Source of the DNA: Caballeronia catudaia
GTDB taxonomy: Bacteria; Pseudomonadota; Gammaproteobacteria; Burkholderiales; Burkholderiaceae
Direction of reading: 5' to 3'
DNA length: 64,000 bases
NCBI RefSeq assembly: GCF_001544755.2
Contig: NZ_FCOF02000036.1
Location: 1 to 64,000, forward strand
Shown here: piece by piece, positions 35,011 through 52,485 of the stretch
Layout: every line of letters starts with the position of its first letter
How positions within the stretch are numbered: the stretch's first letter is position 1
Notes under the pieces: model-generated
Told to the model about the DNA's origin: nothing
Databases searched by the model: none
Seen by the model: the letters and a program-made list of their open reading frames with translations, nothing else
Position numbers and translations under genes: made by a program

Positions 35011-35015
35011 TCAAC

Positions 35016-36620: not shown

Positions 36621-37529
36621 AGGTACTCGACGACGCGGTGGAGATTGCGAGACCTTTGCTCGAAGCAAAGGCTCACGAAATCGTCGTCGAGCTTCCTCCG
36701 CGGCCCCTTCATATCCAGGCCGACCGCCTGCGGGTCGCGCAGGTGCTGGGCAACCTGCTGACGAACGCCGCGAAGTACACGCCCCCGGGCGGGTACATCG
36801 AACTGACGGCGACCGCGGACGATGCCGAGATCGTCCTGTCAGTCGCCGACGATGGAATCGGAATCGAATCTGACAAGCTGTCGGCGATTTTCTCAATGTT
36901 TTCGCAGGTGAACCCGGACCATCACCGCGAGGGCGGACTCGGTATCGGACTCGCGCTGTCGAAATCGCTGATGGAATTGCACGGCGGCCGACTGACGGTG
37001 TCAAGCGCTGGAAAAGATCGCGGAAGCTGCTTTTCCATTCATCTCCCGGCGCAATGCAGGGTGGTGCCCGCGCCGGTGCCGACGCGTGATGTGCCGGCCA
37101 TTGCAGCATCGGTTGGAAAGCGTCGCATCCTGGTCGTTGACGACAATGTTGATGCGGCAGACGCACTGACCGCGCTCCTAGAACTGGAGGGTCATGAGGT
37201 ACGCACAGTCTATTCGGGCGAGGAGGCGATCGACATCCTTACTCACTTCAGCCCCGAAGTCATCCTGCTCGATCTCGGTTTGCCCGGCATGAGCGGAATT
37301 GACGTCGCACGGTGCATTCGAGCGACGCCGACAACAAAGGATGTCACGATGATTGCCATCACCGGGTGGGGGCAACCTCAGGACCGGCAGCGGACCGCAG
37401 AGGCCGGATTTGACTTCCACTTCACGAAGCCCGTTGATGTGGCCCAACTCAGTCAGGCAATCGAGAGCGCGGTCGCGGCGACGTAGCGGAAGGCCACGTG
37501 TCCGCAAGCATTTGGGGCGGGACGCGGAG

Positions 37530-37706: not shown

Positions 37707-38637
37707 ATCTGCTGCAACGAAGTGCTCCTGCGACTGATTAATGACAAGGACCGCTTCTTTGTGCGCGTACGGTGGGCAGCAAAACGCGCCGTGAAGGGCG
37801 TCGTGGCAGTGGACAACAGGCATCGGCACTGTTGAGATCCGCTCGCCGCATCGCTTCGTCTTCGTGGATCGCGTAACATTGCTACGAGTGGCTACACGAT
37901 AAATAGGATTACTAACGAAAATGCGCTAATGTCCATTATGTCAAAATGCGCTCTGGAAGGCTTCAAGAGCTCGCGGCGACTACCAGCAGGAACGGGGCGT
38001 ACTGCTGCTGTTGGGGACACTGAGCGATCGGGTCCAAACCGCCGCGCAAGGCGTGCGAGCGCATTGCGCATGAAACCGATGTCTGAACATCCGACCGAAT
38101 GGTCCGAACGAAAGTCGCTTCATGGCACGTCGCGCGGCGCCGTCGATCTGGCGAAGGACATCCTATGACGCTGACCGGCCAATTGTGGACGCTCGACTAT
38201 CCTTTGAAGCCGTCATTCGAATGGCTGGTCTGCATCCGAGACCAGTCCGATCTTCTATCGAAGCGCCTTTGCCATTTTTGCCATTCGGGTCGCGTTTGGC
38301 GCTACCTCTGAATGCGGTAGTGTTCGCGTTGGCCGTGGCATCAGCCAAGCAGCCGCAAACCTCCTGACGTTGGCAGCGATAGGTAGTGTGGACTGGATTC
38401 TATGCACTCTACCGTTTCGGCGTTCCTGCGTTAAGCTGTTTCTCCACGAACTCGACCATGAGCTTCTGCCTTAACAACGACGGCGGTCGGCTCGGCTCGG
38501 GGCGGCTCATGTAGATGTGAAATATCCGCGACCCGGCGACGGCCATGACGGCATCCGCAATTCCGGCTTTCAACTTGCCTGAGGCTTGGCAGCTGACAAA
38601 TGCTGGCTCGCTGGCTCACGCGGGCCGGATAACGACG
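37707..38637. other. About 930 bases without a supportable gene
   Basis: Several short frames on both strands, none with a domain or a clear ribosome site. No element ends or RNA genes were identified. The stretch lies downstream of the AraC-type regulator. Confidence 0.5.
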
Positions 38638-39678
38638 CTAACCCGATTTCCGGCGGCAGCGCAGAGAAGCAGACGGCGATTCGCCGAAGTGCTTTTTATA
38701 CTCAACCGAGAACCTGCCGAGATGCGCGAAGCCCCACTTGGTGGCGATTTCCGTGACAGACGTGATACCAGATGCTTCCACGGTCACTAACTCCTGCCGT
38801 ACCCGCTCAAGTCGCAATTGCCGCACGTATCCCATGGGGCTCATTCCATAGTAGTTCTTAAAACCAGAGAATAGTCGGCTGGCGCTCACGCCTGCATGTT
38901 CAGCGATGCTCTCGATGGTCAGTGGCTCTTGGACGTTGGCGCGGATGAACTCTTCAACACGGCGTACGAAAAGCGGTGCGAGCGCACCGGCCGGACGCCG
39001 TATGCCGTCGCGGGCTGTATTCGATTGCCCGTAAAGGAGTGCGTTAATCAAGGTCGATTTAAACTGGTTGAATGCCAGCGGATTCATCAACGGGTGGTTG
39101 TCGATACTCATCGCGTCCGCCAGGAGAGGCAGCAGATGCGTTAGGCAACTGCCTGCCGGAGAATTCAGTGACAGCTCTGGTTCGAACTCCACAGGGCGGC
39201 TGAACGACTCCCCCAGGTGCTTCTCGCAGTGTTCCTCAATGGCGCCACGCTCAATCCTAAGGATGACCTGGGGGCAAGCGTCACCCCACCGCATCCGTAA
39301 CGGCAATGAAGGAGAGAGGAGCGAGGCCGCCTGCGGTGTCGAAACGAAACGTCGGTTGCCACATTCGATTTCCGCGTTGCCGTGAATCGGAATCTGGAGC
39401 AAAAAGAAATTCTCTAGGCGACCCGGGTCAATCACAACCTCGCTGCCATAGTCGAGCAGGTTCAACGACACATCGCCATGCCGCACGTGGTGCATGCGTC
39501 CCAGGAGACCGTGTACGCCCGTCACGACTGAGAGTCCATGCGGTCTGAAGATTTTCCCCACAATAGCCCGTACTTCCTCCAGATCAGTCGACTGCATCAA
39601 GAGATTATCGCGATTGAAACACGGCGCTGTTGAGAGGCCTTGCACGTCGAAGCGGGGCAGCTCTGACCGATTTTCCAC
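38638..39678 (-). CDS. AraC/XylS-family transcriptional activator
   Basis: A 346-residue activator. The N-terminal two-thirds resembles the ligand-binding domain of the XylS/BenR/AntR-like group (for example FRPHGLSVVTGVHGLLGRMH). The C-terminal 100 residues are the AraC DNA-binding domain with two helix-turn-helices, beginning VEEFIRANVQEPLTIESIAE and containing GVSASRLFSGFKNYYGMSPM. The GTG start at 39678 follows AGGTGA. It lies near, and on the same strand as, the indole operon, whose promoters and those of cat and ant carry XylS-type direct repeats. It is therefore the prime candidate for their regulator. The inducer (indole product or anthranilate) is not known. Confidence 0.88.
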   Translation of the reverse strand: MENRSELPRFDVQGLSTAPCFNRDNLLMQSTDLEEVRAIVGKIFRPHGLSVVTGVHGLLGRMHHVRHGDVSLNLLDYGSEVVIDPGRLENFFLLQIPIHGNAEIECGNRRFVSTPQAASLLSPSLPLRMRWGDACPQVILRIERGAIEEHCEKHLGESFSRPVEFEPELSLNSPAGSCLTHLLPLLADAMSIDNHPLMNPLAFNQFKSTLINALLYGQSNTARDGIRRPAGALAPLFVRRVEEFIRANVQEPLTIESIAEHAGVSASRLFSGFKNYYGMSPMGYVRQLRLERVRQELVTVEASGITSVTEIATKWGFAHLGRFSVEYKKHFGESPSASLRCRRKSG

Positions 39679-39950
39679 AATTCACCTCTGACCTTCACTC
39701 TCAACCCGGTCTTCGCGTCGCTGAACGCAAGAAACGGGCCACTTCCCAATCTTAGAAAAGGATGCGCAACGTTCGCATCGGCATATACCCGCAACACCAG
39801 CGGACCGCTCCGGTGTCCTCGCGCACAGCGCGAAAATTCCAGGAGTTGCTGGACAGTGGTTGAAGTTGCCGGATATCACGATCGTGGTCCGACCTCGATA
39901 CTGGAATCGAGCGCTTAGCAAAGTTGGGCGCGTGCACGAAGGAGGACATG

Positions 39951-40190
39951 ATGGACATCGCCGAAACTTCCCTGCATGGTCAGGTTGACAAGTGGCTGGT
40001 ACTGACGCATACGACGTATATGCGTGTGGTTCGGTTCAGTCGTCTCGGATCACATCGAAACCGTTTTGTGTGCGTCGAAACTTCAGGTCCAATGGGTACA
40101 CTCGCGCTTTTCTTTTTCCGGCACGGCGACCGCTCATGGCGAGTCTACCCTCCCGAAACGCAACGCCCTACTATGGCTTTCGCGCGGTAG
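39951..40190 (+). CDS. Small conserved-looking hypothetical protein, 79 residues
   Basis: AAGGAGG five bases before the ATG at 39951 is an excellent ribosome site. The product starts MDIAETSLHGQVDKWLVLTH and contains a beta-rich middle (FVCVETSGPMGTLALFFFRH), then RSWRVYPPETQRPTM. I recall similar short proteins in Burkholderia genomes but no function. Divergent from the AraC-type regulator. Confidence 0.7.
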   Translation: MDIAETSLHGQVDKWLVLTHTTYMRVVRFSRLGSHRNRFVCVETSGPMGTLALFFFRHGDRSWRVYPPETQRPTMAFAR

Positions 40191-40542
40191 TGTCGGTGGT
40201 AGGTGCCGGTTTCCATTTTCTCATGAAGATCGCGCATCGAAGCTTGAACGGACCCGCGAACATCGTGCTCCTTTCCAACGCCCGAATTGACGACACACGA
40301 AATACGCGGGCAGCAGATCTCTTTTCATCATCGCCACCTTTGCTGTCTGCGAGCGGTCCGCCTGTATGGCATAACCCTCGAAGGGCACACCCTAACCATC
40401 GTCAGCATGTTGCCGTGGTAAAGGACATCGCCGCCCGGAGCCTGATCCCGGCGTACAGGGCGGGCACCCGATAAGCGCTTTCCAGCCGCGCACTCGCGGA
40501 ATCATTCAGCGCCCGCCTTACGGCGGGCCTCCGTCGAGCATG
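40191..40542. other. About 350 bases without a gene; contains a strong hairpin
   Basis: No coding frame is supported. At 40511-40528 GCCCGCC-TTAC-GGCGGGC can form a stable stem just downstream of the last gene of the indole operon. Confidence 0.5.
40511..40528 (-). terminator. GC-rich hairpin after the indole operon, possible terminator
   Basis: A 7-bp perfect stem (GCCCGCC/GGCGGGC) with a four-base loop starts about 15 bases beyond the stop of the channel gene. On the minus strand no T-tract follows, so it may act as an mRNA 3'-end stabiliser or a weak terminator rather than a classical intrinsic one. Confidence 0.4.
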
Positions 40543-41499
40543 TCAATGAAAGTGATGCACGTAGCGCAGTACTACACGTGTACCTTCCGGCCTATTTCGA
40601 GCGCCCGCCTCGAAATAGGCGTTGAACATCAGGTGGTCGTGCTGCGAGAAGCTATACATCGCACCCGGACCGATCGCCCAGACCGCTTCACGCTGCCCGG
40701 ACACGTTCTCGCCATTCACCTTCATGTCGGTGATCTGGCGCAGCCAGTAACCGTTGAGGCCGATTCGCAGACCCGGCATGACCTCGTATTCCGTGGCGAT
40801 GTTGATGTGCAGCGCCTGCCCGGCCTGCGATGAAGTTGCGGCGGCTCCAAGACCCTGATAAGGCCGATTGTTGGTGGCGTTCCAGAGGTAGTGCAGTCGC
40901 CAGGAAACCGTCCATTTCGGATTGACCCAGAACGTCGCCGCCCAATACGGATCGATCGACCAGAAACCGCTGCCGGGGTTGATCGCCTTGCTCGGGTCAT
41001 ATGCGCCCGTCGGTGCGATGATCTGAAACTCGAAACGGTGCGCAAAGCGAGGTCCGTCGGGGCCCATCACAGGATCGAACTGGATGAACGGCCCAATCAG
41101 GACGTCGCCGAATCCCGTGCGTGCGTTCAGCGCCACGTCGCCCATGCCGTCGTCGGTATGCGCCGATGCCACCCACGGCAGGATGACGTCGATGCCCGGA
41201 TGGGCGCCCGCGATCTTGAACGGTGACTGATAGACGAGTTGCGTCAGGCCCGCGAAGACATCGACGTTCTGCTTCGGCAAAGCGACCTTGTTGCCGGCAT
41301 TGTCGTTGATACGGTCTGCCGTGTAGTACTCGAGGTACTGCGTTGCATACCAGCCAGAGCCTGCCGGCGGCGCACCGTCGAGGAAGCTCGTGAAACCCAG
41401 GTTGATATTGGGTAGATCGCTGGCGCTTGCCGATGTGGTGTGTATCAGGCCGATCGCGGTGAGGCAGGAAAGCAGCAGGCGGGACGCGCGGTGCTTCAT
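40543..41499 (-). CDS. Outer-membrane channel of the phenol-degradation MetA type
   Basis: A 318-residue protein with a signal peptide (SRLLLSCLTAIGLIHTTSAS, cleavage near residue 27) followed by beta-strand-rich sequence. LPNINLGFTSFLDGAPPAGS and the closing RVVLRYVHHFH fit the family annotated as MetA-pathway-of-phenol-degradation protein, thought to be outer-membrane channels for aromatic substrates. GGGGG lies seven bases before the ATG at 41499. It is last in the minus-strand operon, 42 bases after the flavin reductase, so it may admit indole or related compounds (inference). A 12-bp inverted repeat is embedded in its 3' end. Confidence 0.85.
   Translation of the reverse strand: MKHRASRLLLSCLTAIGLIHTTSASASDLPNINLGFTSFLDGAPPAGSGWYATQYLEYYTADRINDNAGNKVALPKQNVDVFAGLTQLVYQSPFKIAGAHPGIDVILPWVASAHTDDGMGDVALNARTGFGDVLIGPFIQFDPVMGPDGPRFAHRFEFQIIAPTGAYDPSKAINPGSGFWSIDPYWAATFWVNPKWTVSWRLHYLWNATNNRPYQGLGAAATSSQAGQALHINIATEYEVMPGLRIGLNGYWLRQITDMKVNGENVSGQREAVWAIGPGAMYSFSQHDHLMFNAYFEAGARNRPEGTRVVLRYVHHFH
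40590..40620. repeat. Perfect 12-bp inverted repeat inside the channel gene
   Basis: GCCTATTTCGAG at 40590-40601 and CTCGAAATAGGC at 40609-40620 form a perfect 12-bp stem with a 7-base loop, within the last 80 bases of the coding region. It encodes part of MFNAYFEAGARN. A stem this long is unlikely by chance and could affect mRNA stability or transcription read-through. Confidence 0.8.
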
Positions 41500-41541
41500 A
41501 GAATGACCCCCTTGTTATGTAAGGTATGCGAAATTATCGGA

Positions 41542-42075
41542 TCAAGAGAAGGAAAGGTTATTGGCGACCGCGCCGTACTGTCCCGAATGGAAGACCAGCG
41601 GCGCGTGTCCGTTTGCCTCGAAATGCTCGATCTGTCCGATAAAAATCACGTGATCGCCGCCTTCGTGCTGCGCAAGATTGCGGCAAACGAAATGCGCGCT
41701 GCATCCATCGAGGACAATCGTGCCGCCCAGGCTTTCGCGGCAAGCCACGCCGGCGTACTTGTCCGGCACTGCTTTCGAAAAGCGACGGGACAGGTCGATC
41801 TGGTCTTCGGCCAGCACGTTGATCGCGAAGTGCCCGGCATTCACGAAATCCGCGCAGCTGGGCGACGTCTTGCTGATACTCCAGAGCACAAGCGGCGGGT
41901 CGAGCGACAGCGATGCAAACGAGTTCGCGGTCAGGCCGACCTTGCGTCCATCCTCCGCGGCGGCAGTGATGACGGTGACGCCCGTCGGATACTGCCCGAA
42001 GGCGTTGCGCAGTTGCCGCACCGCGTTGACCGGGTCATTGGGCTTTGCGGTGACGGGTTCGTGGGTGCTGGACAT
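41542..42075 (-). CDS. iifD: Flavin reductase, partner of the indole monooxygenase (IifD-like)
   Basis: A 177-residue protein of the FMN-binding split-barrel flavin reductase family. It would use NAD(P)H to supply reduced flavin to the neighbouring monooxygenase. Seen are FGQYPTGVTVITAAAEDG, LTANSFASLSLDPPLVLWSI and GHFAINVLAEDQIDLSRRFS, all typical. AAAGGAG precedes the ATG at 42075. It follows the monooxygenase gene by 27 bases. The symbol is assigned by gene order and family, by analogy with the Acinetobacter iif genes. Confidence 0.88.
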   Translation of the reverse strand: MSSTHEPVTAKPNDPVNAVRQLRNAFGQYPTGVTVITAAAEDGRKVGLTANSFASLSLDPPLVLWSISKTSPSCADFVNAGHFAINVLAEDQIDLSRRFSKAVPDKYAGVACRESLGGTIVLDGCSAHFVCRNLAQHEGGDHVIFIGQIEHFEANGHAPLVFHSGQYGAVANNLSFS

Positions 42076-42102
42076 GAGCTTTCTCCTTTGGTATCTGATC
42101 GA

Positions 42103-43350
42103 TCAGGCGGCGTTCGCGGGGTTCGCAGCGTGCTCGCCAATCAGCGCCGCACAGGCAGCGGGATCGAACCACCAGGGCGAGAAAGTCCGCGGGTCATCGA
42201 AGCCGTTGGCGATGAGCGAGGCCAGTGAAGGTAGCTGGCCTGCCGCACCCAGCAGTTCGAGAATGTGCGGCGGCGGCGGCGTGAGCATTGAGTTCGTCCA
42301 CTTGATGACTGCTTGCGCATAAGACCAGTAGCGATCGAACGTCTGCTGCATCCAGTCTTCGCTAAAGGCGGCGCCGCTGCGTTCGAGAATTGCATCGAGA
42401 TAGACCTTCGTGCACTTGGCGGCGTTGTTCGAACCCTGGCCTGTGATCGGATCGTTCACGACGATCGCATCGGCCATGCCGAACACCGTTTTGCCGGAAG
42501 GCAGCCGGAAGTATGGGTTGCGCACCGTGGGGGCGAAGCGGCCGGACAGTACGCCATTCGGGTCGGTCAGTTCCACGTTGGCGCAACGCTCGGCTTCCCA
42601 GGGCAGGTACTTGCGGACGAACGCAAGACTCGTCGCGAGGTGCTGCTCCGGCGTCTTGACCTCGTTCCAGCAATCGAGCGGACCGCCCGGAATGCCTTCA
42701 AACACCATAATTTCACACGGGCCGGTCGTCGTCAGCGCAGGGAATACAAAGTACTCGCCCACACCAGGGATCAGGTTGAAGCGCACCCGCGAGTAAGGTT
42801 CAGACGGGGTCATGCCCTTCACGTAGGTCAGCGCCAGCGCACGCTGCGGCTTATCGAACGGACTGCGTTCGGCGTTGCGGCCCAGCAGATTGACGATCTC
42901 GCCCTTGCCGGCCGCGAGCAGCACGAGGTCATGGCTTCTTGCCAGTTCTTCCATTTCGGGCACGCCCACGTCGCAGATCCGCACGTCGGCGCCGCGCAGT
43001 TTGACGGCTTCGAGCCAAGCCGACATTTTGAGGCGCTGATCCACGGATTGCGCAGGCCGCGTGAGGCGCGCAGACCAGTCGATCAGCTTGCCGCCGGGCA
43101 CGTCCGGATGCGGCACCGCGAGGGCGATGCCTTCGACGGGTGGGCAAGCGTCTTCCCACCAGTTCAAGCCGAGATCGCGCTCGATCTGCAGCGACGTATT
43201 GAACATGCACTGGCTCGACATGACCTTGCCGGTGCGAATCTGCTCTGCATCGCGATTGGTCACGAGCGTGACCTCATAGTCACGCGCGAGCAGGGCGAAT
43301 GCCAGTTGCAGGCCGGACTGGCCGGCGCCGATGATGGCAATTTTTCTCAT
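42103..43350 (-). CDS. iifC: FAD-dependent indole/styrene-type monooxygenase (IifC-like)
   Basis: A 415-residue single-component flavin oxygenase of the StyA/IndA group, which epoxidises styrene or indole with FADH2 from a separate reductase. The FAD motif IAIIGAGQSGLQLAFALLAR opens the protein. GKVMSSQCMFNTSLQIERDL and VNDPITGQGSNNAAKC are characteristic of this group. GGAGGT lies before the ATG at 43350. The surrounding SDR, dienelactone-hydrolase fusion and reductase match the iif indole-degradation set, so indole is the predicted substrate. Styrene is less likely because no styrene-oxide isomerase or phenylacetaldehyde dehydrogenase is near. Confidence 0.88.
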   Translation of the reverse strand: MRKIAIIGAGQSGLQLAFALLARDYEVTLVTNRDAEQIRTGKVMSSQCMFNTSLQIERDLGLNWWEDACPPVEGIALAVPHPDVPGGKLIDWSARLTRPAQSVDQRLKMSAWLEAVKLRGADVRICDVGVPEMEELARSHDLVLLAAGKGEIVNLLGRNAERSPFDKPQRALALTYVKGMTPSEPYSRVRFNLIPGVGEYFVFPALTTTGPCEIMVFEGIPGGPLDCWNEVKTPEQHLATSLAFVRKYLPWEAERCANVELTDPNGVLSGRFAPTVRNPYFRLPSGKTVFGMADAIVVNDPITGQGSNNAAKCTKVYLDAILERSGAAFSEDWMQQTFDRYWSYAQAVIKWTNSMLTPPPPHILELLGAAGQLPSLASLIANGFDDPRTFSPWWFDPAACAALIGEHAANPANAA

Positions 43351-43406
43351 GACGGGATACCTCCGAGTTGATGGATATGGTCAGGCTGATTGGGTCGCGC
43401 CCGCAG

Positions 43407-44195
43407 TTACTCAGCCAGTTTTGGAATGGCGGGCACGGCCTGTTCGGGACCCATCGCCGAATAGCCGCCATCGACGGCGTAATCGGCACCCGTCACGAAG
43501 CTCGCGGCATCGCTGCACAAGAAAGTAACGACGTGCGCGACTTCTTCCGGATTGCCCACGCGTCCAAGCAGATGAAAGGGCGCAGCCACGCGGTCGGTCT
43601 TCGCGCGGTCGCCTCGGGAGAGTTCGTCCATCACACGCGACCACGTCCAGCCCGGGGAAACCGAGTTCACACGAATCCTGTCCGGGGCCAAATCCAGCGC
43701 CATGTTGCGAGTGAGCGCCTTGAGCGCGGCTTTCGAAGTCGGATAGAGCCAGCGTCCTGTCTGTGCGCATTCGGCTGAGATCGAGCTGAAGTTCACAATC
43801 GAGCCGCCGCCGCGCTCGATCATGTACGGATGCACCGCCTTGACCAGCATCACGGCGGAGATCACGTTCACGTTCATTGCGGCGAGCCAGTCGTTGCGGC
43901 CTGCCTGGATGCCGTTGTCGACATAGCTGCAGGCCAGGTTGACGAGAATGTCGATGCCGCCGAACGTATCGGCCGTTCTCGCAACGGCTCGCTCGAGCGC
44001 ACTATCGCTCGTGATGTCCGTTTCGATGAAGACACCGTTGGCGCCGAGGGAGTCGGCCACGCGCCTGCCGTTCTGCACGTCGATATCGAGGAGGGCGACC
44101 CGGGCGCCGGCGGCAGCCAGGTCTTTGGCGACGGCTGCGCCGATCAGTGTGGCGCCGCCGGTCACGATGGCGGTCCTGCCTGCAAGTGAGGTCAT
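43407..44195 (-). CDS. iifB: SDR dehydrogenase, indole-2,3-dihydrodiol dehydrogenase-like (IifB-like)
   Basis: A 262-residue short-chain dehydrogenase. The cofactor motif is TGGATLIGAAVA, the usual NNAG is changed to NLAC, the catalytic serine is in NFSSISA and the Tyr/Lys pair is YPTSK. In the Iif pathway the SDR oxidises the indole dihydrodiol to 3-hydroxyindolin-2-one. The role here is by gene context. The start at 44195 (MTSLAGRTAIVTGG) is chosen because the 67-codon upstream extension is not SDR-like and overlaps the preceding gene. Spacing to its neighbours is 41 and 56 bases. Confidence 0.87.
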   Translation of the reverse strand: MTSLAGRTAIVTGGATLIGAAVAKDLAAAGARVALLDIDVQNGRRVADSLGANGVFIETDITSDSALERAVARTADTFGGIDILVNLACSYVDNGIQAGRNDWLAAMNVNVISAVMLVKAVHPYMIERGGGSIVNFSSISAECAQTGRWLYPTSKAALKALTRNMALDLAPDRIRVNSVSPGWTWSRVMDELSRGDRAKTDRVAAPFHLLGRVGNPEEVAHVVTFLCSDAASFVTGADYAVDGGYSAMGPEQAVPAIPKLAE

Positions 44196-44236
44196 GGTTT
44201 TCTCGATGGTCGTTGGGTGTGTGATGTACCGGGAGA

Positions 44237-45478
44237 TCAGGCGTTGTCGACGGCGCTGCTGCTGTCCCAACGCTTCATCAGCGTGTTCGACGGGATGGTT
44301 TCGTCGAGCAGCTTGTGCGCAGTTTCGACACCCGCAGTAGGTAGGCCCGTCGGATCGAGCAAGCCGATCTGGACCAGCACGCTGGCCTGATCCCAATAAA
44401 TGTGCTCGTGATAGAGCTTGTTGCCTCGGAACTTCACCACGGCAAGCAGCGGTATCTCGACGCGCTTGCCCGTGGGTGCGATGCCGGGCAGCATCCAGTC
44501 GATCTCGGTGGTGTGCGTGAAGCAGAACAGCACCTCATCGACGATCTGCGTTGCGCCTACGGTGCGCGAGACCGGCGTGATCACCGTGTCCGGCGGATTG
44601 GCGTGCACGAAGTGATGGCTGTAAAAGCGTTTCAGTTCCTTGTAGCCCACGCCGCCCGTGAGGGTCGGGATATGGTTGACGTAGGGCTCGGCCACCATGG
44701 TCGCCATGGTGGCGTCCACGTTGCGCGTCGTGAACTCGTGCGCAAGATGTTCTTCCCACAGGGCCGACAGATCGTAATGCGGGCCCATCGTCTTGCGGAA
44801 CGCGGCCACTGCGCGCTCGTGCGCCATCATCGCGGAAGTCTTGTCGAAGTGGTCTCCACCCTTGCGCGCGAACGCATGGTCGACGCCTGGATAGACATAC
44901 ACTTCGATGTTGTCCTTGCCGGCGAGGGCCGCCGTGATCTGCTGCTGTGCTTCGGGCGGACAGAAGCGGTCGAGCGCGGCGATGTCCAGGACGAGGCGAC
45001 CTTTGATGCTGGCGGCTTCTTCCAGTGCGTGCTCGATGCCCACGCCGTAATAGCTGACTGCGCACGCCACGGGCAGGCGGCAGGCGGCGAGATAGGCAAG
45101 CTTGCCGCCCATGCAGAAGCCGAGCACACCTGTTTCGCCTTGGCACTCGGGCAGCGTGCGAAGTACGTCGAGCGTCGCGGCGATATCTGCAACGCCCTTG
45201 TCTTCGTCGTACTGCCGATAGAGGTCTAACGCGCGCGCAAAACCGGCTTCTGTATAGCCGAGTTCGATACCTGGTTCGACGCGCCAGAACAGGTCGGGAA
45301 CCAGCACTGTGTAGCCTTCCTCGGCGTAGTAGTCGGCCACGTCGCGCATAGTCGCGTTGACGCCGAAGATTTCCTGGCACAGTACGATGCCAGGTCCCTT
45401 GCCGCTTTCAGGGACCGCTAGGTAGGCGCGGAATGCGCCGCCGTGCGGTGCAGGAATATCGATGTATCGTCCTTTCAT
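44237..45478 (-). CDS. iifA: Dienelactone hydrolase-SnoaL fusion (IifA-like)
   Basis: A 413-residue two-domain protein. Residues 1 to about 230 form a dienelactone-hydrolase fold with Glu in CQEIFGV, the Cys nucleophile in GFCMGGKLAYLA, Asp in LVLDIAALDRFC and His in YPGVDHAFAR, so the triad is intact. From about residue 250 a SnoaL/NTF2-like domain follows (DATMATMVAEPYVNHIPTLT). In Acinetobacter a dienelactone-hydrolase-like cofactor-independent oxygenase, IifA, turns 3-hydroxyindolin-2-one into anthranilate; this protein is its likely counterpart. It is first in the operon, with XylS-type repeats 65-100 bases upstream. The start is 45478, after GAGAGG. Confidence 0.87.
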   Translation of the reverse strand: MKGRYIDIPAPHGGAFRAYLAVPESGKGPGIVLCQEIFGVNATMRDVADYYAEEGYTVLVPDLFWRVEPGIELGYTEAGFARALDLYRQYDEDKGVADIAATLDVLRTLPECQGETGVLGFCMGGKLAYLAACRLPVACAVSYYGVGIEHALEEAASIKGRLVLDIAALDRFCPPEAQQQITAALAGKDNIEVYVYPGVDHAFARKGGDHFDKTSAMMAHERAVAAFRKTMGPHYDLSALWEEHLAHEFTTRNVDATMATMVAEPYVNHIPTLTGGVGYKELKRFYSHHFVHANPPDTVITPVSRTVGATQIVDEVLFCFTHTTEIDWMLPGIAPTGKRVEIPLLAVVKFRGNKLYHEHIYWDQASVLVQIGLLDPTGLPTAGVETAHKLLDETIPSNTLMKRWDSSSAVDNA

Positions 45479-45543
45479 TGGGGCCTCTCTGATGGGGTTG
45501 CGGCTTGAGTGGCTCCAGTGTTCGGCGACAAAACAAACGGCTC

Positions 45544-45578
45544 TATCCGTTTTTTTCAACGGGTATCCGCGCAATGCA
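45544..45578 (-). promoter_or_regulatory. XylS/AntR-type operator upstream of iifA
   Basis: Read on the minus strand, TGCA-N6-GGATA (45578 to 45564) is followed 20 bases on by a second GGATA (45548-45544). The published XylS/BenR half-site is TGCA-N6-GGNTA in direct repeat about 21 bases apart. Here one half-site is perfect and the second keeps GGATA. It points toward iifA, 65 bases before its start. Confidence 0.55.
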
Positions 45579-45744
45579 GAAAACTGCCAGAACGAGGGTA
45601 ACTCCTAATAAGGAAGCGAGGTCTTCGTGAATCGGTCGTAGTCAGATAGCTGGAACGCGTAATGATTAGTAAGGGTAGAAAAGCTCGCTACCCGGTGTCC
45701 TCGACCGCTCGCTCGGATCCACTTGTACGGCAAATGCTCAGCCA

Positions 45745-46270
45745 GTCGACTTGGATCGGCCAGCTGCTGCGCTCGTCCTCGATAACTTGGATTTGGTGCT
45801 ACCTGACCACGCGCGTCCGTTTGTGAGCAGGAGCGCGGTGGTGGCGCGGGCGCGCCAGCGCATCGGTGAATCGCCGCCCGAATGGCTGTTTGAGCACGCG
45901 GCGCGCGCCCGATGCACGCAGGACGCGGTCTACCGCCGGTGCAAGACTCGCGCTTGTGCGCGATGGATGGCACGACGCTGCGGATTGCCGGCAGCCAAGC
46001 GCAAGCATTTTGGTGCACAGGGGCTCTGATTGCCTACAATCTGATTGGTCGCAAAATCGCCGATGCTGCCTTCGAAGCGAAGCGCGCTCCCACGGACATC
46101 AGCTTTGTGCACGCGGTTCACACGATCCGGCACGAGATGATGGGGTCGCTGTCTACCTGCCTTTGCAAGCGTGCCTGCATGCCTTCAGCGGCTGCGCGAA
46201 CGGTTGAAGGCGTTGCCAAATAAAAAACGACTCGTCGCACATGCGATCGAGTCGCCAAACCCGGCCCTAT
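45745..46270 (+). pseudogene. Remnant of an IS4-family transposase
   Basis: Scattered pieces in different frames resemble a large IS4-type transposase: ALVLDNLDLVLPDHARPF and VSRSAVVARARQRIGESPPE from the N-terminus, AYNLIGRKIADAAFEAKRAP and ISFVHAVHTIRHE from the C-terminal third, and LPACLQRLRERLKALPNKKR near the end. The catalytic middle is deleted (junction near 46020). It lies exactly between the indole and cat operons and may mark an old recombination point joining them. Confidence 0.65.
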
Positions 46271-46336
46271 TCGTTACGCCGTTCGGTATCTCCGGATGGC
46301 CGTGGCGCACGGCCGATCGGCCGCTACGTGGGGCTG

Positions 46337-47269
46337 TTACGCCGAGGCAGCGCGCAGGCGATGGACGATCTGGTTGTCCTTGCCCTGAACGAGCGGAGTC
46401 AGGGTAACGTTGAACTCGATGTCCTTGTAGGTGTCGGTCTTCAGGCCCAGTGCGGCGCCGCCCGTCTTTTCGACCACGGGGGGGATCAGTTCCTCGCGGG
46501 TAGCGTAGGCGAAGTCGTCCCAGATGAGCGGATCCCCTTCGATGTTAAATTGCGTGGTCAGCTTCCGGTGCTGGGCGCTCGTCACGAAGAAGTGCACGTG
46601 CGCCGGACGGTCACCGTGACGGGCGAGCTCGTTCAACAGCTGCTGAGTCGCACCCTGCGGCGGGCAGCCATAGCCCACCGGCATGAGCGTGCGGAATTCG
46701 TACTTGCCATCCGCGCCTGTCCTGACCGCGCCACGCAGGTTGAATTCGCCCTGCGTGCCCGTCGGATCAAAGTGCGAATAGAAACCGTTGGAATTGGCAT
46801 GCCAGCATTCCACTACGGCGCCAGCAACCGGCTTACCGTCCGGCCCTGTGACAGTGCCGTGGATGATGAGCGGGCCAGCGCGCGGGTCGGGGTCAACGTC
46901 GATCTTTGATACGCCATCGCGTATCGGCGCGCCGGCGACATATAGCGGGCCTTCGATCGTGCGTGGCGTGCCGCCGTCGATGCCGATCGCCTTGTCCGCG
47001 GCATCCATGCGAATGTCGAGATACTTTTCCAGACCGAGGCCGGCGGCGAGCAACGCCGCTTCGCCGTCCTGTCCAAGCTTGTTCAGATAGTTGACGCCGG
47101 CCCAGACTTCATCGGGCGTGATGTCTAAATCATCGATAGCCTTGAACAGATCGCCGAGCAGGCGCTGGATAATCTGCTTGAAGCGTGCGTTGCCGTCCTT
47201 GCTGTCGACGTTGACAGCGGCCTTCAGCAGGTCCTGCACTTCTTGGGTATCGAATACTTTGACGCTCAT
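46337..47269 (-). CDS. catA: Catechol 1,2-dioxygenase
   Basis: A 310-residue intradiol dioxygenase that opens catechol to cis,cis-muconate using non-haem Fe(III). The N-terminal helical dimerisation region precedes the catalytic beta sandwich. The four iron ligands are recognisable as Tyr in EGPLYVAGAP, Tyr in MPVGYGCPP and both His of PAHVHFF. The ATG at 47269 (MSVKVFDTQEV) has GGAGA upstream; an ATG five codons earlier is the alternative. It is last in the catB-catC-catA operon, 78 bases after catC. Full length. Confidence 0.95.
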   Translation of the reverse strand: MSVKVFDTQEVQDLLKAAVNVDSKDGNARFKQIIQRLLGDLFKAIDDLDITPDEVWAGVNYLNKLGQDGEAALLAAGLGLEKYLDIRMDAADKAIGIDGGTPRTIEGPLYVAGAPIRDGVSKIDVDPDPRAGPLIIHGTVTGPDGKPVAGAVVECWHANSNGFYSHFDPTGTQGEFNLRGAVRTGADGKYEFRTLMPVGYGCPPQGATQQLLNELARHGDRPAHVHFFVTSAQHRKLTTQFNIEGDPLIWDDFAYATREELIPPVVEKTGGAALGLKTDTYKDIEFNVTLTPLVQGKDNQIVHRLRAASA

Positions 47270-47347
47270 GGTTACTGTCTCCATATAGTTCTCAGGGAAA
47301 ATACGATTCGGGACGCGTTCGTCCTCGAAAGAACAGTTCTCTCGAGC

Positions 47348-47638
47348 TCAAACGTCGTCGTCACGAATCGACGACGGATGGCGACATAACGGCGTCACCG
47401 AAATCTTCATGTACGGGAAGAGCGGCAAACCCGTCAGGATGTCGTGCAGTTCGGCATTGCTTTCAACGTCGAAGATGCTGTAATTTGCGTACTCGCCTGC
47501 GAGGCGCCAGATATGGCGCCACTTGCGGCTGCGCTGCAGCGCCTGTGAGTACGCCTTCTCGCGAGCCTTGATCTCACCGGCGACATCCGCAGGCATGTCG
47601 GCCGGCAGATTCACATCCATTTTTACGTGGAAAAGCAT
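47348..47638 (-). CDS. catC: Muconolactone delta-isomerase
   Basis: A 96-residue protein, exactly the usual CatC length, which isomerises muconolactone to beta-ketoadipate enol-lactone and works as a decamer. MLFHVKMDVNLPADMPAD at the start and SNAELHDILTGLPLFPYMKI are the conserved stretches. The ATG at 47638 is preferred over a TTG two codons upstream; AAAGGA lies before it. It follows catB by 26 bases. Confidence 0.95.
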   Translation of the reverse strand: MLFHVKMDVNLPADMPADVAGEIKAREKAYSQALQRSRKWRHIWRLAGEYANYSIFDVESNAELHDILTGLPLFPYMKISVTPLCRHPSSIRDDDV

Positions 47639-47664
47639 CGTCAATATCCTTTGTTGCGGCGGAA

Positions 47665-48801
47665 TTATCGGGTGATTTTTACGAGCCCATCGCGGGTGAA
47701 GCGCTTGACCTTGACTTCGTCCAGTTCAATGCCCAGACCCGGGCCATTCGGCACAGTCAGTTCGAAATTGCTGTAGTCCAACGAATGCGTCAAGATCTCT
47801 TCGACGATCAATAGTGGCCCGAATAATTCCGTACCCCACTGCAGGTTCGCGAAGCTGGCGAATAGATGCGCCGACGCAATCGTGCTGAACGCCCCTTCGA
47901 GCATCGTGCCGCCATAGAGCTCGATACCCGCTGCATCGGCAATCGCGGCCACGTGCTGCGCAGCAAACAACCCGCCACTTTGTTCGATTTTGATCGCGAA
48001 CACGTCGGCGCCATGGCTCTTTGCGATCTCAAACGCGCTTTGCGGACCCTGCAGGATTTCGTCGGCCATCAACGCAACGGGGAAGCGGCCCCTCAGGCGC
48101 GCCAGCGCCGCTGGTGAAGCCACCGGCTGTTCGACCAGTTCGCAGCCGGCGTCGGCCAAAGCGGGAATGGCGCGCATTGCCTGCATCTCACTCCAGGCCA
48201 TGTTGACATCCACGCGCACGGCCGCGCGGTCTCCGACCGCCCGTTTGATCTCGGCGACATGCCGGATGTCAGCCTCTAGCTCTTTCGCACCGATCTTCAG
48301 CTTGAAGACGTTGTGCCGTCGCGCTTCGAGCATCTTCTCGGCCTCGGCGATGTCTTTGGCCGTGTCGCCCGAAGCCAGCGTCCACGCGACGGGCAGCCGT
48401 TCGCGTCGGCGACCACCAAGCAAGTCGCTCACCGGCACGCCGAGGCGCTTGCCTTGCGCATCTAACAACGCCGTTTCGAGCGCGCTCTTCGCGAAGCGAT
48501 TGCCTTTGACGAGCTTGCCGACGTACGCCATCAGCGCCTGAATGCCGGTGACGTCCCGCCCGATCATGGCGGGAGCGCAGTAGTTGTCGATCGCGAGCTT
48601 CATCGACTCGGGGCTTTCCGGACCGTAGGCCATGCCGGCGATCGTGGCGCCTTCACCGATACCGACAACGCCATCGCTGCAGTACACCTTCACCAGCATC
48701 AATGTTTGTCCGTGCATCGTACCGACCGACAGCTTGTGCGGGCGGATTGTTGGCAGGTCGAGCAGGCAGGTTTCGATGCGTTCGATAGTGGATGAGCTCA
48801 T
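47665..48801 (-). CDS. catB: Muconate cycloisomerase
   Basis: A 378-residue enolase-superfamily enzyme that cyclises cis,cis-muconate to muconolactone. The catalytic lysines are in FKLKIGA and AIKIEQSGG. The metal ligands are Asp in RVDVN, Glu in ELVEQP and Asp in ADEIL. The chosen start (48801) gives the family's length and the typical opening TIERIETCLLDLPTIRPHKL; the 102-codon upstream extension lies in the divergent promoter region and is rejected. It is first in the cat operon and divergent from antA, with GGATA direct repeats 130 bases upstream. Confidence 0.95.
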   Translation of the reverse strand: MSSSTIERIETCLLDLPTIRPHKLSVGTMHGQTLMLVKVYCSDGVVGIGEGATIAGMAYGPESPESMKLAIDNYCAPAMIGRDVTGIQALMAYVGKLVKGNRFAKSALETALLDAQGKRLGVPVSDLLGGRRRERLPVAWTLASGDTAKDIAEAEKMLEARRHNVFKLKIGAKELEADIRHVAEIKRAVGDRAAVRVDVNMAWSEMQAMRAIPALADAGCELVEQPVASPAALARLRGRFPVALMADEILQGPQSAFEIAKSHGADVFAIKIEQSGGLFAAQHVAAIADAAGIELYGGTMLEGAFSTIASAHLFASFANLQWGTELFGPLLIVEEILTHSLDYSNFELTVPNGPGLGIELDEVKVKRFTRDGLVKITR

Positions 48802-48930
48802 GGCAGAAGCTGATGAAGTTCGTGGACCCGGCAGCCATCCACCGGTGCCTACGCCATCGACTTCGATGGCAGCTACCGACGGGCGTTCAGGGGCGTCCAC
48901 AGGATTAAATACTGGAGCCCGCGCGTGCGC

Positions 48931-48956
48931 TATCCGTCTACTCGTCACCCCTATCC
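48931..48956 (-). promoter_or_regulatory. XylS-type direct repeat upstream of catB
   Basis: TATCC at 48931-48935 and 48952-48956 (GGATA on the minus strand) are exactly 21 bases apart, two helical turns, within a repeated CTATCCGT. The second copy runs into a T-tract, as in the iifA site (CTATCCGTTTTTTT in both). Oriented toward catB. Confidence 0.5.
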
Positions 48957-49044
48957 GTTTTTTTTTGGTCTGGCCCACCGAACGCTCGTGGGCGGTCGGG
49001 CTCGGTCGTCGCATCGCTCCGCGCAGCGCGTCGCCGAAAAAAAT

Positions 49045-49071
49045 GGATAGAAAACGGCGACTAGGCGGATA
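49045..49071 (+). promoter_or_regulatory. XylS-type direct repeat upstream of antA
   Basis: GGATA at 49045-49049 and 49067-49071 on the plus strand, 22 bases apart, about 84 bases before the antA start and pointing at it. Both are followed by AG. The TGCA half of the consensus is not conserved here. The catB site lies 90 bases away on the other side of the divergent region. Confidence 0.45.
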
Positions 49072-49154
49072 GCGCCGCCGCTGCATTGGGTATTCAATCC
49101 CCCTCATCGGAGACTTGGTCGCGAGACCGCTTAATGGCAGGAGGAGAACCCATC

Positions 49155-50543
49155 GTGAGCGCGGAAAAAACTACGTCGCAGTGGCAAGATTTCATCGGCG
49201 GATGCCTTGACTTCCGTCCGGCAGAGGGCGTCTATCGCATCGCTCGAGAGACGTTCACGGAGCCGCAGCTGTTCGACCTCGAGATGGAGTTCATCTTCGA
49301 GAAAAACTGGATCTACGCCTGCCACGAGAGCGAGATTCCCAAGCCGAACGACTTCATGACGATGCGTGCAGGCCGGCAGCCCATGATCATTTCGCGCGAC
49401 GGAAACGGTCAGCTCAATGCAATGATCAATGCGTGCCAGCACCGTGGCGCGACGCTCACGCGAGTGGATAAAGGCAATCAGTCGACTTTCACGTGCCCGT
49501 TCCATGCGTGGTGCTACAAGAGCGATGGGCGTCTCGTCAAGGTCAAGGCGCCCGGCGAGTACTGCGAGGACTTCGACAAGTCCACACGCGGCCTCAAAAA
49601 AGCACGCATTGCGAGTTACAAGGGCTTTGTGTTCATCAGCCTCGACGTCGACGCGACCAACACGCTCGAGGACTATCTTGGCGACGCGCGCATTTTCTTC
49701 GACATGATGGTGGCGCAATCACCGACGGGCGAGCTCGAAGTGCTGCCAGGCAAGTCCACCTACACCTACGACGGCAACTGGAAGCTGCAGAACGAGAACG
49801 GCCTCGACGGGTATCACGTGAGCACGGTGCACTACAACTACGTCGCCACGGTGAAGCGCCGCCAGGAGGCGAATGCACAGGCCGGCGGGGCGACGAACGG
49901 CACGCTCGATTACAGCAAGCTTGGCGCGGGCGACGCCGAGACCGACGACGGCTGGTTCGCGTTCAGGAATGGCCACAGCGTCCTGTTCAGCGACATGCCG
50001 AATCCCAGCGTGCGTCCCGGCTACGCGAGTGTCATGCCGCGCCTGGTCGAAGAGCACGGCCAGCAGAAGGCCGAGTGGATGATGCATCGGCTGCGCAACC
50101 TGAACGTCTATCCGAGCCTCTTCTTCATGGATCAGATCAGCTCGCAGTTGCGCATCGTGCGTCCGGTAGCCTGGAACAAGACTGAAGTCACCAGCCAATG
50201 CATCGGCGTGAAGGGCGAATCGGATCAGGACCGTGAAAGCCGCATTCGGCAGTTCGAGGACTTTTTCAACGTTTCGGGCATGGGCACGCCGGACGACCTG
50301 GTGGAGTTCCGCGAGCAGCAGCGCGGCTTCCAGGCGCGCCTCGAGCGCTGGAGCGACATCTCGCGCGGTCATCACAAGTGGGTGGCGGGTGAGACGGCCA
50401 ACACGCGGCTGCTCGGCATCGCGCCCGCGCTGTGCGGTACGGAGTTTACCCACGAGGGTCTTTACGTCAACCAGCACGGCGCGTGGCAGACGTTCCTCAA
50501 GAACGGTCTTGCACAGCGATTGAACAGTAAGAAGGAGGCCTGA
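49155..50543 (+). CDS. antA: Anthranilate 1,2-dioxygenase, large (alpha) subunit
   Basis: A 462-residue Rieske non-haem iron oxygenase that converts anthranilate to catechol with loss of CO2 and ammonia. The Rieske cluster ligands are in CQHRGATLTRV and CPFHAWCYKSDG. The mononuclear iron site lies in NENGLDGYHVSTVHYNY, whose spelling is that of AntA rather than BenA (which has ENGADGYHVSAVHWNY). The GTG at 49155 follows AGGAGGAGA and gives the usual N-terminus; upstream in-frame codons are discarded. It is first in the antABC operon, with catB divergent. A benzoate dioxygenase is the less likely alternative. Confidence 0.93.
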   Translation: MSAEKTTSQWQDFIGGCLDFRPAEGVYRIARETFTEPQLFDLEMEFIFEKNWIYACHESEIPKPNDFMTMRAGRQPMIISRDGNGQLNAMINACQHRGATLTRVDKGNQSTFTCPFHAWCYKSDGRLVKVKAPGEYCEDFDKSTRGLKKARIASYKGFVFISLDVDATNTLEDYLGDARIFFDMMVAQSPTGELEVLPGKSTYTYDGNWKLQNENGLDGYHVSTVHYNYVATVKRRQEANAQAGGATNGTLDYSKLGAGDAETDDGWFAFRNGHSVLFSDMPNPSVRPGYASVMPRLVEEHGQQKAEWMMHRLRNLNVYPSLFFMDQISSQLRIVRPVAWNKTEVTSQCIGVKGESDQDRESRIRQFEDFFNVSGMGTPDDLVEFREQQRGFQARLERWSDISRGHHKWVAGETANTRLLGIAPALCGTEFTHEGLYVNQHGAWQTFLKNGLAQRLNSKKEA

Positions 50544-50546
50544 ACC

Positions 50547-51044
50547 ATGTCAGTCACGCATACGCTGCAACAATCGGTCGAGCAGTTTCTCTATCGCAAG
50601 GCCGAGCTTTGCGACGCGCAGAACTGGGACGAGTACCTCGACCTCTTCGATGAAGATAGCGAATTTCACGTGCCTCAGTGGGACTCCGAACACGTGTACA
50701 CGACTGACCCGAAACGCGGCATGTCACTCATCTACTACACGAACCGCACGGGTCTCGATGATCGTGTGTTCCGCCTGCGCACGGGCAAGTCGGCAGCATC
50801 GACGCCCCTGCCGCGCACGCTGCATCAGATCACCAACGTACGCATTGCGGAGCGCGAAGGCGGCGAACTTGAGGTAAAGGCCAACTGGGCCACTTTCTAC
50901 GCGCGGCGTGGTATTGGCGAACACTTCTTTGGTCACGTCACGTACCAATTACGCCCCGCTGGCGCCTCCTGGAAGATCGCGCGCAAGCACGTGCTGCTGC
51001 TGAACGACACGATCAATGCAGTGCTTGATTTCTACCATCTGTGA
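50547..51044 (+). CDS. antB: Anthranilate 1,2-dioxygenase, small (beta) subunit
   Basis: A 165-residue ring-hydroxylating dioxygenase beta subunit (NTF2-like fold), structural partner of AntA. KAELCDAQNWDEYLDLFDED near the start, LHQITNVRIAEREGGELEVK in the middle and a final VLDFYHL are typical. It starts three bases after the antA stop with AAGGAGG inside the end of antA, so translation is probably coupled. Full length. Confidence 0.93.
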   Translation: MSVTHTLQQSVEQFLYRKAELCDAQNWDEYLDLFDEDSEFHVPQWDSEHVYTTDPKRGMSLIYYTNRTGLDDRVFRLRTGKSAASTPLPRTLHQITNVRIAEREGGELEVKANWATFYARRGIGEHFFGHVTYQLRPAGASWKIARKHVLLLNDTINAVLDFYHL

Positions 51045-51060
51045 GCGGGAGTACCACGAC

Positions 51061-52104
51061 ATGAGCCACAAGGTCGCCTTCAGCTTTGCCGACGGCAAGA
51101 CTGTGTTCTTCGATGTCCGCACGAGCGAGCTTTTGCTCGACGCCGCGCTGCGCAATGGCGTGAACATCCCACTCGATTGCCGCGAGGGTGTATGTGGAAC
51201 CTGTCAGGGTCGCTGCGAATCGGGCAGTTACACGCAGGACTATGTCGACGAGGAAACGCTGTCTGCCGACGATCTCGCCGCACGCAAGATTTTGTCGTGC
51301 CAGACGCGCGTGCAATCCGATGCATCGTTTTATTTCGACTTCGATTCGAGCCTGTGCAGCGCGGGTGGCACGACGTCGATCACGGGGAAGGTCACAGCCG
51401 TGAAGCAGATTTCCGAAACGACGGCGATCCTGCATCTGGACGCCAGCGCCCATCCGCGCAGACTCGATTTCCTGCCGGGGCAGTATGCTCGCCTGCACGT
51501 GCCTGCCGCGGATGCATGGCGTTCATATTCGTTTGCCAACCGGCCTAATGACAGCAATCAGCTGCAGTTCCTGATCCGTCTTCTGCCGGACGGCGCAATG
51601 AGCAAGTATATGCGTGAGCGTTGCCGGCCGGGTCAGACGATCGAGTTCGAGGCGCCGCTCGGCACGTTCTATCTGCGCGAGGTGGAGCGGGCAGTCGTGA
51701 TGGTCGCGGGCGGCACGGGCTTGTCTGCGTTTTTAGGCATGCTCGATGATCTCGCGCACAAGGGCGGCTGTGGCAAGCCAGTGCGTCTCTATTACGGCGT
51801 GACGAACGCACGCGACCTTTGCGAGCTCGAGCGATTGAAGTCCTACGAGGAGCGCATCGCCGACTTTGCCTGCGAGATTGTTGTGATGAACCCCGCCCAG
51901 GAGTGGCAGGGCAAAATAGGACTGATCCCTGAGCATTTCGACCGCGCGTTCCTCGAAGCGAACCCGTTCGATATGTACGTGTGCGGACCGCCTCCCATGG
52001 TTGAAGCGATCAAGACGTGGCTCGCGAACGAGCGCGTGCACGACCATCACCGACTCTGCTACGAGAAATTCGCAGACAGCAACAGCACGCAATCGGCATC
52101 GTGA
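51061..52104 (+). CDS. antC: Anthranilate 1,2-dioxygenase reductase
   Basis: A 347-residue electron-transfer reductase for AntAB. The N-terminal plant-type ferredoxin has cysteines in DCREGVCGTCQGRC and LSCQT. An FAD domain follows with RSYSFANRP, then an NAD domain with MVAGGTGLSAFLGMLDD and DMYVCGPPPMVEAI. The ATG at 51061 is 16 bases after antB and preceded by GCGGGAG. It completes antABC. Full length, no unusual residues seen. Confidence 0.93.
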   Translation: MSHKVAFSFADGKTVFFDVRTSELLLDAALRNGVNIPLDCREGVCGTCQGRCESGSYTQDYVDEETLSADDLAARKILSCQTRVQSDASFYFDFDSSLCSAGGTTSITGKVTAVKQISETTAILHLDASAHPRRLDFLPGQYARLHVPAADAWRSYSFANRPNDSNQLQFLIRLLPDGAMSKYMRERCRPGQTIEFEAPLGTFYLREVERAVVMVAGGTGLSAFLGMLDDLAHKGGCGKPVRLYYGVTNARDLCELERLKSYEERIADFACEIVVMNPAQEWQGKIGLIPEHFDRAFLEANPFDMYVCGPPPMVEAIKTWLANERVHDHHRLCYEKFADSNSTQSAS

Positions 52105-52189
52105 AGTTGCGGCGCAGCGTACGCCTCGGGTGTATCCGGCATTTTGTCAGTGTGCGGTCTCGCAAAGGACGAATTGCGCTGGGTTGGTT

Positions 52190-52383
52190 GCCGCGCGCCG
52201 TTCACTCGGATTGAACTGATCCCGAGTCGCTGCGCCGGTACGCCCGATGACGTCCGCTATGTCACGGCATTGCTCATGGGGCGGATGGGGACTTCATTAC
52301 ATTACCGACAGTGCTTCTTGATGGATGGCGGCATAACTTCTCCGTACTGGTTTGGGGCGCCAGCTCCGGCTTGGCTTGCATGA
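52190..52383 (+). pseudogene. C-terminal remnant of a short-chain dehydrogenase
   Basis: CAGTPDDVRYVTALLMGRMG, then FLMDGGITSPYWFGAPAPAW, is the recognisable end of an SDR, where G-P-DV--V--L and DGG are conserved. No cofactor or catalytic part is present and a frame disturbance lies around 52300. It probably marks the edge of a former gene beyond antC. Confidence 0.6.
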
Positions 52384-52485
52384 CGCGTGTTGCCTGGAAA
52401 ACTGTCATTGGCAGCCTGCTTGGCAACGGACCAGACAAGGCGACTGCCCGGCGGTTCAACTGCCGTTTTCGATCACGATGACCTG

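Follow-up and report, generated by a model that had tools for sequence, protein, structure and literature searches.

A predicted indole-to-enol-lactone catabolic island in Caballeronia catudaia, with an apparent mosaic build, no detectable AntR regulator and repeats retained in its promoters

Positions 38,638-52,104 of a 64,000-nucleotide stretch of Caballeronia catudaia contig NZ_FCOF02000036.1 (the window) hold 12 neighbouring full-length genes that belong to one pathway, all of them with intact reading frames (Table 1). Nine lie on the minus strand in the order catB, catC, catA, iifA, iifB, iifC, iifD, iifE and whpR; antA, antB and antC occupy the plus strand, and ant and cat have a divergent promoter region in common. 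Most of the 12 starts are preceded by purine-rich, ribosome-binding-like runs, and the mechanically called catB frame (480 amino acids, aa) is about 102 codons too long, judged by where its relatives align. A block of this kind, 12 genes of one pathway with the same set in 6 of 73 relatives' loci, is far beyond chance. The loci were fetched with the window's IifC as query and reach at most 10 kb to each side of iifC; the six hold iifABCD, antABC, catBCA, antR and whpR within the fetched stretch (at least 45% identity for the enzymes and AntR, at least 35% for WhpR), and 17 of the 73 have iifABCD and antABC with catBCA incomplete there, the stretch ending in some of them.

Table 1. Genes, predicted operators and other features at the locus (HTH, helix-turn-helix; IS, insertion sequence)
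Feature	Positions	Strand	Basis
Island-specific stretch	37940..52416	.	left bound against G052 only; right bound against G052, G009, G011
whpR/iifR, AraC/XylS regulator, 346 aa, GTG start	38638..39678	-	AraC_binding_2 + HTH_18
Predicted WhpR operator upstream of whpR, GGAYA direct repeat, period 20, points away from whpR	39840..39877	+	relatives-based model
iifE/ipoC, outer-membrane channel type, 318 aa	40543..41499	-	Phenol_MetA_deg 223 bits
iifD/ipoB, flavin reductase, 177 aa	41542..42075	-	Flavin_Reduct 130.5 bits
iifC/ipoA, predicted indole monooxygenase, 415 aa	42103..43350	-	Smoa_sbd; PDB match; fingerprint; tree
iifB/dhoB, short-chain dehydrogenase, 262 aa	43407..44195	-	adh_short_C2 202 bits
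iifA/dhoA, dienelactone-hydrolase + SnoaL two-domain protein, 413 aa	44237..45478	-	DLH 144 bits; SnoaL_2 27.9 bits (cut-off 27)
Predicted WhpR operator upstream of iifA, period 20	45542..45579	-	relatives-based model
Junction of cat and iif modules, IS4-like transposase relic	45602..46336	.	blastn to plasmid records
catA, catechol 1,2-dioxygenase, 315 aa	46337..47284	-	TIGR02439 448.2 bits, cut-off 392
catC, muconolactone isomerase, 98 aa	47348..47644	-	MIase 137.7 bits
catB, muconate cycloisomerase, 378 aa	47665..48801	-	MR_MLE_N + MR_MLE_C
Predicted catBCA operator, GGATAG repeat, period 21	48930..48967	-	repeat count
Predicted antABC operator, GGATAG repeat, period 22	49034..49072	+	place and period as in AntR-bearing relatives
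antA, anthranilate 1,2-dioxygenase large subunit	49155..50543	+	TIGR03228 922.9 bits, cut-off 671.9
antB, small subunit	50547..51044	+	TIGR03231 268.1 bits, cut-off 213.5
antC, reductase	51061..52104	+	NF008822 611.8 bits, cut-off 402

The original prediction, made from the letters alone, had read an operon for a channel, a flavin reductase, a StyA/IndA-type monooxygenase, a short-chain dehydrogenase and a dienelactone-hydrolase/SnoaL fusion, adjoined by catBCA, antABC and an AraC/XylS regulator, and all of it stands: every gene is intact, the five operon products have domain matches, and AntA, AntB, AntC and CatA each score above their NCBIfam equivalog cut-offs. With the domains of CatB and CatC, CatA completes a catBCA ortho pathway, and antA over its cut-off is present in a single copy in the genome. 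The run of iifA, iifB, iifC and iifD with an AraC-type regulator makes the block an iif/ind cluster, and whpR with a complete dhoAB pair and at least ipoA makes it a WHOP-like cluster under the rule reported for these in PMC12538310. An antR beside antABC, a usual feature of such clusters and not a required one, is absent here.

Read together, these genes would degrade indole to 3-oxoadipate enol-lactone. IifC, supplied with reduced flavin adenine dinucleotide by IifD, would epoxidise indole, and the epoxide would open to indole-2,3-dihydrodiol, which IifB would convert to 3-hydroxyindolin-2-one and IifA onwards to anthranilate. AntABC would turn anthranilate into catechol, CatA, CatB and CatC would carry catechol to 3-oxoadipate enol-lactone, and a PcaD-type enzyme encoded elsewhere would finish the latter; a PcaD-type hydrolase that passes its cut-off is encoded on contig C66 of the same genome. 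IifE probably forms an outer-membrane channel. The proposed chemistry follows work reported on Acinetobacter sp. O153 and Cupriavidus sp. SHE (PMC6221969; PMC7225977), the SnoaL fold of the IifA C-terminus is described in PMC7225977, and iif-dependent indole degradation has been reported in Acinetobacter (PMC4577076; PMC6221969). The route through anthranilate, catechol and muconate to the enol-lactone that had been proposed from gene content agrees gene by gene with the characterised iif and WHOP systems. Every enzymatic step is supported by homology, and we infer that indole is the substrate in this host. The block thereby reads as a horizontally acquired, IS-assisted catabolic island that degrades indole to 3-oxoadipate enol-lactone, a reading to which we give a probability of about 0.88. 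A second catA over the cut-off lies beside a benA-like gene on contig C81, which makes catechol degradation independent of the island and weighs against this reading.

IifC appears from sequence comparison to be an indole monooxygenase of the Group E type and not a styrene monooxygenase. It falls below the StyA equivalog cut-off (201 versus 550 bits), as expected of an indole rather than a styrene enzyme. Whole-length matches of about 616 bits to PDB 7z4x (residues 1-404) and 9lrq stand beside 126-190 bits for three remoter structures, of which two carry the name styrene monooxygenase and the third 'styrene/indole monooxygenase family'; the StyA structure 3ihm scores 126 bits. We take 7z4x, along with 7z94, to be Variovorax VpIndA1, and it has SSQCM at the fingerprint site in common with IifC. 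Identity is 65.2% to the IifC homologue of an Acinetobacter baumannii strain other than the characterised one (L149, record NZ_CP077849, the source of the A. baumannii identities), 65.0% to that of Variovorax (L048), 36.9% to a skatole-type-like Acinetobacter protein and 26.8-28.3% to three StyA proteins. The comparison that could have refuted the original prediction favours it: homologues from indole-degrading genera have about 65% identity against 27-28% for StyA, and the best-matching structures are not styrene enzymes. The phylogeny against styrene monooxygenases suggested as a check agrees: in a 15-row tree IifC stands with the indole-type rows and the three StyA split off at 100/100, although the 11 indole-type rows part from the skatole-like row with only 82/61 support. 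Class fingerprints are reported as S46-Q48-M50-V/I73-I76-A96 for indole and N46-V48-H50-Y73-H76-S96 for styrene enzymes (PMC13101512). In an alignment numbered by the StyA of Pseudomonas sp. VLB120, whose residues give exactly the styrene fingerprint, IifC has the indole-type S46, Q48, M50 and A96. Columns 73 and 76 hold P and E, not V/I and I, and speak against the assignment. We take this mismatch to be an apparent alignment shift in the loop, because ten other indole-type rows likewise have P at 73 and E or D at 76 and because V72 and I75 fit the fingerprint in IifC's own numbering, the only way in which positions 73 and 76 are matched. A styrene role for IifC was rejected on the equivalog score, the PDB matches, and identity, fingerprint and tree.

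The full indole gene set in one block has already been described, as 'WHOP-like' clusters (PMC12538310). The WHOP island of Pseudomonas savastanoi NCPPB 3335 and the WHOP-like clusters are reported there to have the same set of whpR, dhoAB, ipoABC (together with dhoAB equal to iifABCDE), antABC and catBCA and the same proposed indole pathway; the window differs in its gene order, in having no antR and in that catBCA lies upstream of iifA with an IS4-like relic between them. The main text of that paper lists all Burkholderia WHOP-like clusters without complete antABC plus antR, names no Burkholderia with catBCA, and has no occurrence of 'Paraburkholderia' or 'Caballeronia'. Caballeronia and several Paraburkholderia accordingly join the hosts of a complete indole-to-enol-lactone block, beyond the genera of that main text; what is new here is the mosaic build, the missing AntR and the promoter repeats with their spacing prediction.

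As the original prediction had claimed, the iif operon has the Acinetobacter gene set: iifABCDE-iifR of A. baumannii ATCC 19606 has the same five genes in the same order with the regulator downstream, and the proteins are of similar length (window/A. baumannii: IifA 413/416 aa, IifB 262/261, IifC 415/412, IifD 177/176, IifE 318/315, IifR 346/352). In L149, whose IifA is 67% identical to that of the window, the regulator is convergent and followed by antABC, whereas the window regulator is co-directional; catBCA was not found within the 11 kb examined there, and most Acinetobacter clusters are reported to have it (PMC12538310). Nearer relatives are the complete blocks of Paraburkholderia sacchari (L005), P. 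tagetis (L038) and Paraburkholderia sp. CNPSo 3274 (L006), with proteins 85-92% (iif), 85-93% (ant) and 84-87% (cat; CatB 86% in all three) identical to the window and the same divergent ant/cat promoter with repeats. They differ in a whpR of another clade (60-61%) that lies upstream and divergent, and in an antR between iif and ant. In Paraburkholderia sejongensis (L002) and Burkholderia sp. SRS-W-2-2016 (L004), on the other hand, WhpR (84% and 82%) and IifC (91%) are close and the regulator has the same place and orientation as in the window, but no ant or cat lies in the 10-kb flanks; both genomes carry antABC with antR on another contig. Both loci also carry, 5-6 kb upstream of their iif operon, a second iifA-like gene (L002 1536 and L004 2483; 61-62% identical). 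Variovorax clusters differ from the window by a second iifC copy and another gene order; the Variovorax-type loci L048, L050-L052, L055, L057 and L059 have two tandem iifC, iifA at the end and no antABC in the stretch.

These likenesses suggest a mosaic import, in which an iifABCDE-whpR module of the L002/L004 layout was joined to an antABC/catBCA module of the Paraburkholderia (L005/L006) type, two modules that occur separately in other genomes. Import is indicated because iifC is present in 1 of 58 genomes of the genus, the source genome itself, because the ends are sharp against relatives, and because an IS4-like relic marks the module junction. Collinearity with relatives extends up to 45,601 for the iif part and from 46,337 to about 52,148 for the ant/cat part. 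The sequence between them matches 10 plasmid records by blastn, and in five of them the matched part is labelled IS4 family transposase (68-73% identity); an open reading frame at 45605-46018 (137 aa) was rejected as a genuine protein, having no family and overlapping the relic. IifC groups with L002/L004 (96/92), and WhpR does so at 100/99, joined next by L023 (a locus in genome G062) and the 15-kb Paraburkholderia hospita stretch L153 at 99/98; the split of this clade from AntR at 100/100 marks the window gene as an orthologue of WhpR and not of AntR. AntA is 92-93% identical to L005, L006, L024 and L038 and 83-84% to the antA of the L002 and L004 genomes. The iifA and iifB genes are slightly nearer to L003, L005 and L038 (89-93%) than to L002 and L004 (85-89%), which weighs against a clean two-module origin.

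The stretch 37,940-52,416 is specific to this lineage, since alignments to the related genomes G052, G009 and G011 break sharply at its bounds. G052 aligns up to 37,939 on the left and from 52,417 on the right, and the right-hand break recurs in G009 and G011 (52,417 and 52,418). Beyond the right bound G009 and G052 are alike in three large pieces (94-96%) over the 34.7 kb of G009 fetched; within the fetched stretches G009 and G011 have only the right flank in common with the window. A simple empty site was not found: on the one G052 contig that has both flanks, 73 kb of other DNA separates them, so the comparison defines boundaries within what is a variable zone. No transfer RNA gene was found at the island edge in the window or in six fetched stretches, and none of 72,556 plasmid records covered 80% of the block. 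Between antC and the backbone (52149-52416) one frame resembles, on inspection by eye, the terminal part of a short-chain dehydrogenase, perhaps another junction scar.

In the Paraburkholderia blocks antR follows antC; the window contains no antR, and its right island boundary falls 312 bp past antC. An AntR search of the source assembly, which is 99.6% complete, returned WhpR itself as best match (30%) and sole full-length match, the other 19 covering the C-terminal (HTH) part only. We infer that the right-hand boundary of the island severed antR from the block. Among 13 relatives' genomes searched (that of L003 not being one of them), antA passes its cut-off in nine, and AntR (at least 50%) is present in eight of the nine; G065 has AntR and an antA split over two contigs with each part under the cut-off. 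The exception is G062, where antABC lies downstream of iif; L153 has a similar layout and no antR within its 15 kb. In both genomes with antA and without AntR, ant is joined to iif and WhpR belongs to one clade, a pattern qualified by L002 and L004, which are in the same WhpR clade yet have AntR. Paraburkholderia sp. CNPSo 3274 also carries a second antABC/cat copy (L157, G061:C222) in which most of catB and catC are missing; no antR was found in the 14 kb examined there. The window may offer a natural example of a specific regulator lost with its likely operators kept, in which regulatory take-over could be tested.

All four promoter regions of the island contain a direct repeat. GGAYA pairs of period 20-22 occur only four times in the whole 64 kb, one per promoter region (39,851, plus strand, period 20; 45,568, minus, 20; 48,956, minus, 21; 49,045, plus, 22), against 0.7 expected, and the stricter GGATA...GGATAG form occurs three times and never in 60 controls. 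A model built from 27 distinct relatives' sites, chosen by two GGAYA 20 bp apart and with the window left out, gives the site upstream of iifA 38.7 bits and that upstream of whpR 15.2 bits, second-best in the 64 kb; the best of eight random 64-kb controls reaches 10.8 bits. A site similar to the latter, in the same orientation, lies upstream of whpR in L002 and L004. Across the relatives' loci (window included, L158 excluded as the same place as L039; the loci are related and the counts non-independent), the period is 20 upstream of iifA in 45 of 62 (two also 21) and upstream of whpR in 44 of 51 (three also 21, one also 22). Upstream of antA it is 22 in 17 of 28 and 20 or 21 in none, one locus also having 19 and L025 having its 22-period pair 349 bp upstream. 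Upstream of catB, 22 and 21 each occur in five of nine, four loci having both through a third box, the window 21 alone and L157 22 alone. After mononucleotide shuffling, no single spacing exceeds 0.2 per set. Weighing against these repeats as operators, one of the 60 controls held five loose GGAYA pairs, more than the four observed, and no pair was found in 17/62 iifA, 11/28 antA, 7/51 whpR and 3/9 catB regions. Two other patterns were tried and rejected: the plain XylS pattern TGCA-N6-GGNTA was too loose (five window matches versus 0.9 expected, one in an island promoter), and a half-site model rose above the controls at the iifA site only (best 18.5 versus a control maximum of 17.3).

A P. 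aeruginosa AntR promoter study reportedly exists. In Pseudomonas fluorescens no XylS-type site was detected upstream at Pant, where a figure legend shows a 9-bp direct repeat, and Pben has two XylS-type sites 5 bp apart, that is, a 20-bp period (PMC1360089). 'Binding site', 'operator', 'direct repeat' and 'consensus' have no occurrence in the main text of PMC12538310, nor 'operator' in PMC4577076, and the literature searched, subscription papers aside, gave no precedent for a predicted binding site of IifR/WhpR or at ant promoters, for both of which a concrete prediction is offered here.

How the four promoters are controlled is a matter of two readings that stand about even. Plausibly, one WhpR-run regulon spans all of them. 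In its specific form, which we put forward tentatively, WhpR would have become sole regulator after the loss of AntR and would read both 20- and 22-bp GGATAG spacings (a 'spacing code'), with the 21-bp cat site intermediate. The other reading, itself close to an even chance, is that WhpR controls iif while ant and cat are under another regulator or none, two units lying side by side. The ant and cat periods of 22 and 21 rather than 20 suggest that AntR sites are normally distinct from WhpR sites and are the main argument against a single regulon; these repeats match the sites of AntR-bearing relatives, the IS4-like relic lies between the modules, and other AraC-type genes are present in the genome, albeit matching AntR over the C-terminal part only. 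The single regulon is favoured by WhpR being the only full-length AntR match in so complete an assembly, by both GGATAG boxes being intact at ant and at cat, and by a GF-HLGRFS stretch in the second HTH that is common to WhpR and AntR and that we take to read the GGATAG box. In A. baumannii IifC is reported to require IifR (PMC4577076), whereas WhpR is a reported repressor of most WHOP operons in P. savastanoi (PMC12538310), so control here may be either positive or negative.

It is rather unlikely that the main role of the block is indole detoxification or signal quenching instead of growth. A. baumannii IifC is reported to protect against indole (PMC4577076) and ipoABC to affect aggregation and biofilm in P. 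savastanoi (PMC12538310), but ant and cat in the same block suggest carbon and nitrogen use, and the two roles are not mutually exclusive. It is very improbable that IifC has some other indole or aromatic compound, such as skatole, styrene or a plant indole, as its chief substrate and turns over indole incidentally. Enzymes for skatole within this group have been proposed for Burkholderia and Acinetobacter (PMC13101512), and a related Variovorax pair has been described as a sulfoxidase (PMC6017014), but IifC is far closer to the A. baumannii homologue than to the skatole-type-like protein or StyA, and iifA, iifB and antABC fit a route via anthranilate.

Elsewhere in the window, 16583-24731 has the look of a mandelate-type cluster, with an FMN-dependent dehydrogenase, a major facilitator superfamily transporter, a ketopantoate-reductase-like protein, an aldehyde dehydrogenase, a thiamine-pyrophosphate enzyme and a LysR regulator; its product is presumably benzoate, which would also feed catechol. 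To the left of the island a 3.0-kb IS4/Tn5-like insertion (33587-36611) carries two divergent transposase frames between inverted ends, with a 9-bp duplication of its target at 33578-33586 and 36612-36620. Two fragments of a hybrid histidine kinase gene (32548-33609 and 36638-37486) flank it, and in G052 their matches lie next to each other. An 832-aa reading frame at 25832-28330 carries a TPS (two-partner secretion) domain.

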